From positions 62,001 to 126,000 of the forward strand of contig SCQE01000021.1 of assembly GCA_004321915.1 (NCBI GenBank): a stretch of 64,000 nucleotides of DNA. Direction: 5' to 3'. Position numbers and translations under genes: made by a program. The notes under the pieces were generated by a model, which saw only the letters and a program-made list of their open reading frames with translations, was not told the origin of the DNA and searched no databases. This DNA comes from Nitrospirota bacterium (lineage in GTDB: Bacteria > Nitrospirota > Thermodesulfovibrionia > Thermodesulfovibrionales > Dissulfurispiraceae). Below are positions 51,796 through 63,313 of the stretch, in pieces. Position 1 is the first letter of the stretch; each line of letters begins with the position of its first letter.

Positions 51796-52047
51796 ATGGC
51801 AGATTTAAAGTCACAAACCCCTACGGAGACGCTGGACGTTCTCGGCAGGGTATGTCCTTACCCGTTGGTGCTTACCAAGAAGCAGATGGAAAAGCTCGAC
51901 AGCGGCTCGCTTCTGAAGATACTTTGTGACGCCCCGGCGTCTGCTGAGGATTCTATCCCCCGTTATGCGGAGAAGCAGGGTTTCGATATCGAGGTTGTAA
52001 AGGTTGAAGATAAAGGCTTTTGGGAGATTTATCTCAAAAAGAACTAA
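51796..52047 (+). CDS. tusA: TusA-family sulfur (selenium?) carrier
   Basis: 83 residues. CPYP motif with the carrier Cys (LGRVCPYPLVLTKKQM) and PASAEDSIPRYAEKQGF are standard TusA. It shuttles persulfide, and in some organisms related YedF-type proteins handle selenium, to target proteins. With the DsrE-type genes it forms a relay; a YeeE/YedE transporter, its common partner elsewhere, is at 29.5 kb. Confidence 0.93.
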   Translation: MADLKSQTPTETLDVLGRVCPYPLVLTKKQMEKLDSGSLLKILCDAPASAEDSIPRYAEKQGFDIEVVKVEDKGFWEIYLKKN

Positions 52048-57577: not shown

Positions 57578-57826
57578 TTAGTTTTCGTTTTTTATTGCGT
57601 CGGCAAGGTCTTTAAATGTAACTGTGCCGTTTATGACCAGCGGTTTTGAGTCGATAAATACGGAAGGACAGACGGGCGGATTTTTTTCTGACGAATATTG
57701 AGGCGATGTCTTGGGAATGACGGCTACTTTTACACCTAATTCTTTTTCCGCCCTACGGGCGGATTCGATGTTTGTTAATCACCGTTTGCCCATAGGCTCG
57801 TTTACGTAAAGCTTAACGGTTTTCAT
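57578..57826 (-). CDS. Small thioredoxin-fold protein with in-frame UGA (Sec)
   Basis: 82 residues if the UGA at codon 16 (57781-57779) is read; RBS GGAGAG 6 bases before ATG 57826. Order fits a thioredoxin fold: strand KLYV, loop NEPMGKR-U, helix LTNIESARRAEKELG, strand VKVAVIPKTS, then PPVCPSVFID with a Cys before a probable cis-Pro. U16 takes the place of the second Cys of a CxxC. Only one Cys is present (C53). The TAA touches the ATG of the TSUP gene. A perfect SECIS-like hairpin follows the UGA. No standard ORF spans it, so annotation pipelines will miss it. Confidence 0.8.
57747..57763 (-). promoter_or_regulatory. SECIS-like hairpin in thioredoxin-like gene
   Basis: Minus strand TCCGCCC, GTA, GGGCGGA: a perfect 7-bp stem with GU in the loop, 22 nt after the UGA. 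Confidence 0.75.
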
Positions 57827-57846
57827 CCGGTACTCTCCTTGATTTT

Positions 57847-58146
57847 TTATTTAACCTCTACCGGGTCTCCTTCAACCGGATATGTCGCGTCTTTCAAGGC
57901 CTTTTTTATTGTTTCGATATCTGTCTTTTCTGTGTCATAAATTACCGTGAGCGAGGTTGTTGATATATCGTCGTCAACGTCCAGAACCCCTGAAACCGAT
58001 TTGGCGGCAACACTTGCCTGCCATGCGTTCGTGGCTCAAAACACTTTGGGAACGATCAGCTGCACCTTTTTTTCTGCCGCAAAAGCGGAGATGCCGATTG
58101 AAGCAATTGCAAGAAAAACAACTGTGGACAATAATATCATTCTCAT
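57847..58146 (-). CDS. Exported MerP/HMA-like protein with in-frame UGA (Sec)
   Basis: 99 residues if the UGA at codon 37 (58038-58036) is read; RBS GGGGGGAG. Signal peptide to about FAA/E (residue 24). The mature part follows the heavy-metal-associated fold of MerP: strand VQLIVPKVF-U, helix ATNAWQASVAAKSV, SGVLDVDDDISTTSLTVIYD, helix DIETIKKALKDATYPVEG. The UGA sits where HMA domains have their metal-binding Cys. The mature protein has no Cys at all, so Sec would be the only soft ligand. A SECIS-like hairpin follows. Confidence 0.8.
58002..58023 (-). promoter_or_regulatory. SECIS-like hairpin in MerP-like gene
   Basis: Minus strand TGGC-A-GGCAA, loop GTG, TTGCC-GCCA: 9 bp with one bulged A; GU is 22 nt after the UGA. 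Confidence 0.72.
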
Positions 58147-58663: not shown

Positions 58664-59398
58664 CTATGCGCGGACAGTAAGGAAATGGGAAGTTAAAAAG
58701 GCGGTAATCTTTATGGCCGTTGAATAAAAGCCTTTTCTATGGTTTTTGCAGTCTTCCAAGAGGCTGTCTATCCAGTCAAGATGTTTTAGCAGAAATTCTT
58801 GTTGTTCCCTTTTTGAGGCATTGCTGCATAAAAAAGACATATATTCCAATTCGAGGGACAGGTGATCCGGCATAGACGAATATTTGTCGGGTATCACGAT
58901 TTCAGAAGCTCGATACCTATTTATCATGTCCATTGCAGGGTCGCCCATTAGATAGCCTTTCTCTCCGGACATGCTTAATTTGCATCCCGGGTCGTTTGTC
59001 CATTTTTTATAAACGCTCTCCACAGGCACTATATAGGGCGGCATGGGGCCTAAAAAAAGTCTCCTGTATTCGTCTTTTAGAGACGCATATACTAAGGAAT
59101 TTACAAGCAAAGCCCCCTCACCCGCAAGGGGAGAGGGTTGTATTAGTTCCCCTCCCTTGAGGGGAGGGGATGAAGGGGAGGGTGATTTGTGCGGCTTTGT
59201 TAAGTTATATCTTAGTACATCGTTATTCACGGACAGACCCGATAAAACAGATACGTCAATCTCCAGTTCAGAGAAGGCTTTTTTAAAGTAACGGAGGAGC
59301 CTGCCCGAGGCGACGTCATCGGCAAACTCCTCTGTAGGCTCTTTAAAGAACTCGCTTAACTGAGCGTAAATATCGGCCCTCATATTGTTGTTCCCCAT
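58664..59398 (-). CDS. TorD/NarJ-like chaperone for the molybdenum enzyme
   Basis: 244 residues. All-helical TorD-type chaperone: LKDEYRRLFLGPMPPYIVPVESVY, MPDHLSLELEYMSFL and QQEFLLKHLDWIDSLL are characteristic. It binds the Tat-exported catalytic subunit during cofactor loading. Residues about 70-97 (Pro/Ser/Gly-rich, PSPSSPPLKGGE, PSPLAGEGA) are the translation of a palindromic repeat inserted in frame in a loop. Starts 7 bases after the ferredoxin subunit stop. Confidence 0.85.
   Translation of the reverse strand: MGNNNMRADIYAQLSEFFKEPTEEFADDVASGRLLRYFKKAFSELEIDVSVLSGLSVNNDVLRYNLTKPHKSPSPSSPPLKGGELIQPSPLAGEGALLVNSLVYASLKDEYRRLFLGPMPPYIVPVESVYKKWTNDPGCKLSMSGEKGYLMGDPAMDMINRYRASEIVIPDKYSSMPDHLSLELEYMSFLCSNASKREQQEFLLKHLDWIDSLLEDCKNHRKGFYSTAIKITAFLTSHFLTVRA
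59108..59188. repeat. Palindromic repeat inserted inside the TorD-like gene
   Basis: CCCTCACCCGCAAGGGGAGAG and CCCCTCCCTTGAGGGGAGGGG type hairpins, a common bacterial dispersed palindrome. Its length keeps the reading frame, adding about 27 residues. Confidence 0.7.
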
Positions 59399-62365: not shown

Positions 62366-63313
62366 CTAACATCCGCAGTCTGCTTCCACGGATATATTGA
62401 TTTGCGCCGTGGCCTTCTGGCCGTTCTCATCCTCCACTTGGACAATGACCACATAAACTCCTTGGGTAAAGGTATGCCCCACTTCTCTGCCTGCAGCGCT
62501 TTCGCCGTCTCCGAAGCTCCAGTTGATCGCCTTAATCTTTCCGCTGCCACCCCTTGTAAGCGCCTTGAATTTAACTGCATAAGGAGTGTTGCCTCTCCTG
62601 TTCTTCACGCCGCCGATCTTTACGCTTAGGGCTCTCCCGGCAGATCCCGTATCCTCTTCTATCAGGAGACTCCCACCCAATCTCTTTGAGGTCTTGTTCA
62701 ATGCCTCCTTTATCTTATCGGGCATCGGCGCGGGGTTTTCGGGTTTAGTCCCTGTTTTTAACACCGCCTGCCCGCCGTCCTCAATCCTGACACGCTGGAC
62801 GCCCGTATCGGCAATTACGGTCCCGAGGATAGACCATATGGTGGTCTTTTTTTCCGTTTCTTCGTATTTAACGGCGAACTCGGCTCCTTGTGTCATTATC
62901 GCGGCCCCTCCCGCGCTTAACTCGAAATGGCTGAACAGATGTTCGGGCACTTGCGCCTTGGCGAAGATTCTGCCTTTTTCGAGTACGAGAAGGGATTTTT
63001 CGAGTTTCCTGTCGCTTTCAAAAATTATTCCGTTTAAGATCAGGGTTGTTTCAGGATACAGCTCCACTATGCTGCCGTTCGACCATGTAAGCACAACCGC
63101 CGAGTTCGCCTTTGTCGCTATTTTTTCGTCCCTTTCGATGATATCTCCTTCCTTTAACGGAACTCCGTTTCTGGTGACAGCGCCGTCAACTCGTGTTGCG
63201 CGCACTGTTGAGGCGTCTTCCGCATAGACAGCGCCCTTGCCGATCTGTAAGAAAAGAGAAAGCATACAGATAAAAGCGCTAACCGATAAAACTTTTTTAG
63301 TTGAGCAGATCAT
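62366..63313 (-). CDS. Exported FecR-domain protein with C-terminal PKD domain
   Basis: 315 residues, signal peptide to about YAE (residue 31), RBS AGGAGG. FecR-like domain about 36-190 (VDGAVTRNGVPLKEGDIIERDEKIAT, SAVVLTWSNGSIVELYPETTL). A PKD domain at about 235-310 (INWSFGDGESAAGREVGHTF). Ends EADCGC. Located 13 bases before the molybdenum enzyme gene, so it belongs to the same operon; a structural or anchoring role is a guess. Confidence 0.86.
   Translation of the reverse strand: MICSTKKVLSVSAFICMLSLFLQIGKGAVYAEDASTVRATRVDGAVTRNGVPLKEGDIIERDEKIATKANSAVVLTWSNGSIVELYPETTLILNGIIFESDRKLEKSLLVLEKGRIFAKAQVPEHLFSHFELSAGGAAIMTQGAEFAVKYEETEKKTTIWSILGTVIADTGVQRVRIEDGGQAVLKTGTKPENPAPMPDKIKEALNKTSKRLGGSLLIEEDTGSAGRALSVKIGGVKNRRGNTPYAVKFKALTRGGSGKIKAINWSFGDGESAAGREVGHTFTQGVYVVIVQVEDENGQKATAQINISVEADCGC

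Follow-up and report, generated by a model that had tools for sequence, protein, structure and literature searches.

A selenoprotein gene from a divergent sister subfamily of TsoC in a Nitrospirota genome and its possible link to sulfur handling

Introduction

TsoC is so far a selenoprotein defined by its motif, catalogued in NCBIfam as NF045708 ("NEPxGxxU motif selenoprotein TsoC"). It is part of the "three selenoprotein operon" (Haft & Tolstoy, 2025, as cited in PMC13188914), and the listing of TsoC in PMC13188914 states no function for it. Among proteins of the thioredoxin fold, the "cxxC" class is the arrangement of the peroxiredoxins, in which the nucleophile sits at the second CxxC position and the first cysteine is gone, as in the TxxC of Prx5 (PMC2757866).

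We analysed a stretch of 64,000 nucleotides from a Nitrospirota bacterium (contig SCQE01000021.1, positions 62,001 to 126,000), hereafter the window, in which an initial annotation made from the sequence alone had proposed a small thioredoxin-fold selenoprotein. The gene belongs to a TsoC sister subfamily in which both selenocysteine (Sec) and cysteine forms occur and whose conserved neighbourhood of sulfur genes offers a testable role for TsoC-type proteins. It also exposes a closable gap in annotation, as such genes are truncated at the UGA and score under the cut-off of the family model.

Results

The frame with a single UGA is present on the minus strand at 57826–57578 (82 codons plus TAA); the initial annotation had named no strand. 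Its only TGA is codon 16, at 57781–57779. The plus-strand reading of the same interval was rejected, as it contains two TGA and two other stop codons. With TGA read as Sec, the translation is MKTVKLYVNEPMGKRULTNIESARRAEKELGVKVAVIPKTSPQYSSEKNPPVCPSVFIDSKPLVINGTVTFKDLADAIKNEN*, in which NEPMGKRU agrees with the NEPxGxxU motif of TsoC, and U16 and Cys53 are the only thiol or selenol residues. The gene has its own ribosome-binding site, AAGGAG at 57840–57835 (minus strand), 8 nt from the ATG, and its TAA (57580–57578) is followed without a gap by the start codon (ATG, 57577) of a gene for a TSUP permease; both features had been pointed out previously. The Cys53 codon (57670–57668, minus strand) lies immediately 5′ of that of Pro54, and the two residues are invariant in the subfamily.

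We searched 395 genomes across the phylum for homologues and obtained matches in 42 of them; a contig search with the single window protein as query had returned two loci only. Among 28 close loci, the window's included, codon 16 is TGA in 23 and a cysteine codon (TGC) in five, and the same codon in a sister subgroup (subgroup ii) encodes Cys in six members and Sec in five. The cysteine homologues that the initial annotation suggested looking for thus exist, five close and six more distant, and all 28 close loci have TGA or Cys at the codon; homologues with neither had been named beforehand as a finding that would refute the proposal. Downstream of the UGA, comparison with a relative of the same genus gave dN 0.062 and dS 0.92, indicating purifying selection, and third codon positions hold 25 of the 34 differences. 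In view of the conserved codon 16 and the selection after it, we rejected a chance open reading frame. The genome carries selA, selB and tRNA-Sec above their respective cut-offs and, with selD, the whole machinery for Sec.

A bacterial SECIS hairpin occurs exactly as initially described, at 57763–57747 on the minus strand, with seven perfect base pairs and a GUA loop (UCCGCCC-GUA-GGGCGGA) 22 nt after the UGA. The bacterial SECIS model given in PMC13188914 comprises a loop of 3–9 nt with a G in its first two positions, a spacing of 16–37 nt and a minimum free energy of −7.5 kcal/mol or lower, and the spacing, the loop and the −13 kcal/mol (z −3.17) of the window hairpin agree with the model as described there. 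Rfam gave no meaningful match, either to a SECIS or to any other family. The hairpin of the window gene by itself is not decisive, since 489 of 20,000 synonymous recodings gave an equally good one, and therefore it is the comparative evidence that bears the case for Sec. We counted hairpin pairs at the fixed position across loci and compared them with synonymous codon shuffles. The 23 Sec loci retain a mean of 6.04 of the seven pairs against 4.50 (s.d. 0.18) in the shuffles, a value reached in none of 1000, while pairing in the five Cys relatives is at chance level (304 of 1000 shuffles). Covariation of the paired positions in the Sec genes amounts to 0.343, compared with 0.139 after shuffling (0 of 500), and is low when the partner is slid. 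Decoding of the UGA as Sec is well supported by the Sec/Cys exchange at the exact codon, the conserved SECIS, the purifying selection beyond the UGA and the complete machinery, which together bear out the selenoprotein assignment; we regard it as very likely that the frame encodes a selenoprotein related to TsoC.

The gene product is cytoplasmic. An AlphaFold2 model built with 26 homologues (pLDDT 93.7, pTM 0.82) has the strand and helix order of thioredoxin (β-α-β-α-β-β-α), with Pro54 aligned to the thioredoxin cis-Pro before the third strand. In structure comparisons with VIA-align and Foldseek, the model superimposed on thioredoxins with Z scores of 9–10.8 and an r.m.s.d. of about 2 Å over 78–79 of the 82 residues; Foldseek ranked ArsD first (E 9e-4, TMq 0.71) and thioredoxins next. 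A PDB search with the single window sequence produced chance matches only, and a Pfam search with the window protein found no match. The family profile performed better than the single sequence against the PDB, with 1ilo (MTH895, E 2e-4) and the small thioredoxin 1nho (E 2e-3) as its best sequence matches. In the profile alignment, U16 falls on the second Cys of the CxxC motif in both proteins, and Gly13 on the first in 1nho. MTH895 and 1nho share fold and register with the window protein but carry a complete CxxC, whereas the window protein has GxxU, with Gly13 in the place of the first Cys, instead of the canonical motif. These results support a predicted minimal thioredoxin fold of the "cxxC" type, in which Sec16 would lie in the opening turn of helix 1, and agree with the initial proposal that the protein is thioredoxin-like and carries Sec in place of the second active-site Cys.

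Cys53, located just before the likely cis-Pro as noted earlier, is a plausible candidate for the selenenylsulfide partner of Sec16. It is missing from two related groups, canonical TsoC and the NDPPGRR[C/U] group, and the superfamily as a whole therefore does not need it.

NF045708 matches residues 3–80 of the window protein with an E-value of 3.9e-9; the score of 36.4 bits falls short of the curated 45-bit cut-off. The relatives fall into three groups, namely canonical TsoC (NEPxGKTU...APA...ICRH), the NDPPGRR[C/U] group and the window's own group (N[DE]PMGKRU...PPxCPSV). Profile comparison with hhalign related the window group to canonical TsoC at 97.6% (E 3.5e-12), and to the NDPPGRR[C/U] group at 98.6% (E 6.1e-16). 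In a maximum-likelihood tree, computed from a short alignment with long branches and rooted at the midpoint, the window group forms a clade (100/99) and canonical TsoC a separate one (99/97), and at least two Sec/Cys changes are required. TsoC and the window protein share homology over the whole length, the N[ED]PxGxxU motif, a similar size and a related ArsR gene nearby. Unlike TsoC, the window protein stays below the model cut-off, branches separately, has Cys53 before the cis-Pro and lacks the C-terminal ICRH segment.

The window's own genome gave no match to TsoA and no full-length TsoB. Its partial matches to TsoB resemble those obtained in 13 of 14 control genomes. The window gene is not placed in a three-selenoprotein operon with TsoA and TsoB, its neighbours being different. 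As neither TsoA nor a full-length TsoB was found in the genome and the clade is separate, we place this homologue of TsoC outside the Tso operon. Sequence comparison assigns it to a divergent sister subfamily and sets it apart from the protein of the Tso operon itself. The word "new" in the initial annotation thus holds in part: the family was already catalogued as TsoC, and the newness is limited to the sister subfamily below the model cut-off, with operon types of its own. In one relative (G093), a TsoB-like stretch lies directly upstream of a canonical TsoC gene on one contig. Two TsoA-like genes with one TGA each (L133 and L134) score below their cut-off, and both genomes also carry a window-type gene. 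In another genome, a selenoprotein gene of the window type (L068) and one of the NDPP type (L025) form a tandem pair (L048, G042:C2:187434-188107).

All genes of the window's operon lie on the minus strand. Upstream, an ArsR/SmtB-type repressor gene (58533–58171) encodes conserved Cys32, Cys70 and Cys99-Cys100; in the ArsR proteins of the subfamily loci, Cys32 and Cys70 are kept and Cys99-Cys100 nearly always. The sulfite-sensing repressor BigR is among the weaker NCBIfam matches of the window ArsR. Between ArsR and the TsoC-like gene lies a gene for a secreted MerP/HMA-like selenoprotein (58146–57847; Sec37, TGA at 58038–58036). Its motif is VPxxxUA[ST]; about 20 homologues with TGA occur in the phylum, and one homologue (L132) has Cys at the same residue. 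NCBIfam has no model that this protein matches at the model's cut-off. Downstream follow the flush TSUP (TauE/SafE) permease gene (57577–56789), a selD gene (56713–55667) whose product is itself a selenoprotein (Sec14, CSGUAAKFS), and a gene for a second TSUP permease (55666–54887), which starts flush with the SelD stop. When TGA is taken as a stop, the SelD frame begins late, at GTG 56638. With three selenoproteins among four consecutive genes (MerP-like, TsoC-like, TSUP and SelD), the operon is a compact setting in which to ask why Sec is used.

To describe the neighbourhood, we counted families from Pfam and NCBIfam on the same strand within 4.5 kb in 27 subfamily loci; as several loci lie near contig ends, the counts are lower bounds. 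ArsR was found at 20 loci, an SQR-like flavoprotein at 14, DsrE, DsrF and DsrH at 13 each, TSUP at 11, DsrE2 at seven, SelD at two and the MerP-like selenoprotein at one. Seven of the 27 (four Sec and three Cys) have none of the tested neighbours within this distance. In subgroup ii, TSUP follows directly in five of eight loci, all five being Cys forms. The nearest relative, from the Nitrospirae MAG MYbin3 (L009), has 87% identity and the same gene order.

Discussion

The neighbours of the subfamily (ArsR, TSUP, DsrE/F/H and SQR-like proteins) suggest a role in the redox chemistry of sulfane sulfur or sulfite. Our literature search found no paper linking TSUP, TusA, DsrE and ArsR, or a selenoprotein, TSUP and ArsR. 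We infer a mechanism from the anatomy of the protein together with gene linkage. The operon would be controlled by a thiol-sensing ArsR repressor. The selenolate of Sec16 may attack the sulfane sulfur of a persulfide, a polysulfide, a thiosulfate-type substrate or a DsrE-type carrier, and Cys53 could resolve the intermediate by forming a Sec16-Cys53 selenenylsulfide. Freed sulfide, sulfite or thiosulfate would then leave by way of the TSUP permease encoded immediately downstream, and cellular thiols would recycle the protein.

A selenoprotein of the TsoC sister group acting by such a sulfur mechanism is, as a whole, the explanation that we mildly favour. More tentatively, the unnamed subfamily might be the selenium-based part of a DsrE/F/H-SQR-TSUP system of sulfur trafficking, a thioredoxin with one nucleophile in which Sec would remove sulfane sulfur from carriers or polysulfides, with TSUP exporting the product and ArsR sensing sulfur. 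Several observations count against the sulfur explanation. The neighbours in the window itself are the MerP-like protein, SelD and two TSUP permeases and not DsrEFH or SQR, seven of the 27 loci lack every tested neighbour, ArsD is the best Foldseek match, and the sister subgroups do without Cys53. ArsR repressors, moreover, more often sense metals.

The similarity to ArsD, the ArsR gene and the MerP-like neighbour make a metallochaperone the main rival, albeit an unlikely one. As an ArsD-like or MerP-partner chaperone, the protein would bind Hg(II), As(III) or a similar metal or metalloid through Sec16 and Cys53 and pass it to the MerP-like selenoprotein and the permease, with ArsR as a metal sensor. 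The top rank of ArsD (3mwh, 3kgk) in Foldseek, the repressor at 20 of 27 loci and the MerP-like selenoprotein adjoining the gene in the window fit this role, and the operons of ArsD are likewise linked to ArsR. The metalloid site of ArsD, however, is a cluster of three cysteines, which the window protein, with U16 and Cys53 alone, does not contain; the two proteins share 13–14% identity. The MerP-like gene occurs in this genus only, at one of the 27 loci, and we saw neither ars genes nor further mer genes in the window's operon. The genes for DsrEFH and the SQR-like protein in the neighbourhood are sulfur genes. According to Su et al. (2007; cited in PMC2757866), metal binding by thioredoxin-family proteins is precluded when a cis-Pro adjoins the active site.

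Next in probability, and also unlikely, comes a peroxiredoxin-like or general thiol-disulfide reductase with a TxxC-type nucleophile and no special tie to sulfur species. The predicted thioredoxin fold and the "cxxC" arrangement, shared with Prx5, would suit it. Yet the window protein has no PxxxTxxC motif, carries Pro and not Arg at the cis-Pro site and is far smaller than a peroxiredoxin, and its conserved linkage with DsrEFH, SQR-like and TSUP genes also counts against this role.

We consider a function in selenium supply improbable, ranking behind the reductase. Here, the protein would be a carrier or reductase for selenium en route to SelD, and the TSUP permeases would move selenium or sulfur oxyanions. 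SelD shares the operon in the window's genus and is encoded directly 3′ of the TsoC-like gene in another locus (L049), and the window contains a TusA/YedF-like gene. Against these stand the linkage of SelD in only two of 27 subfamily loci and the existence of Cys forms; because SelD is itself a selenoprotein, a common dependence on selenium may suffice to account for the linkage. The TusA/YedF-like gene encodes a putative sulfurtransferase and lies on the plus strand at 51796–52047.

Hardly credible is a true stop at the UGA followed by a chance or decayed frame, for which the 2.4% of recodings matching the hairpin of the window gene alone may be cited, in the face of the Cys homologues, the selection past the UGA, the SECIS covariation and the complete Sec machinery.

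Upstream of the operon, at 62580–58664 on the same strand, we observed genes for a PhsA/DmsA-type molybdopterin reductase, its FeS subunit and a TorD-like chaperone. The chaperone gene contains a low-complexity insert rich in CCCCTC/GAGGGG near 59112–59175.
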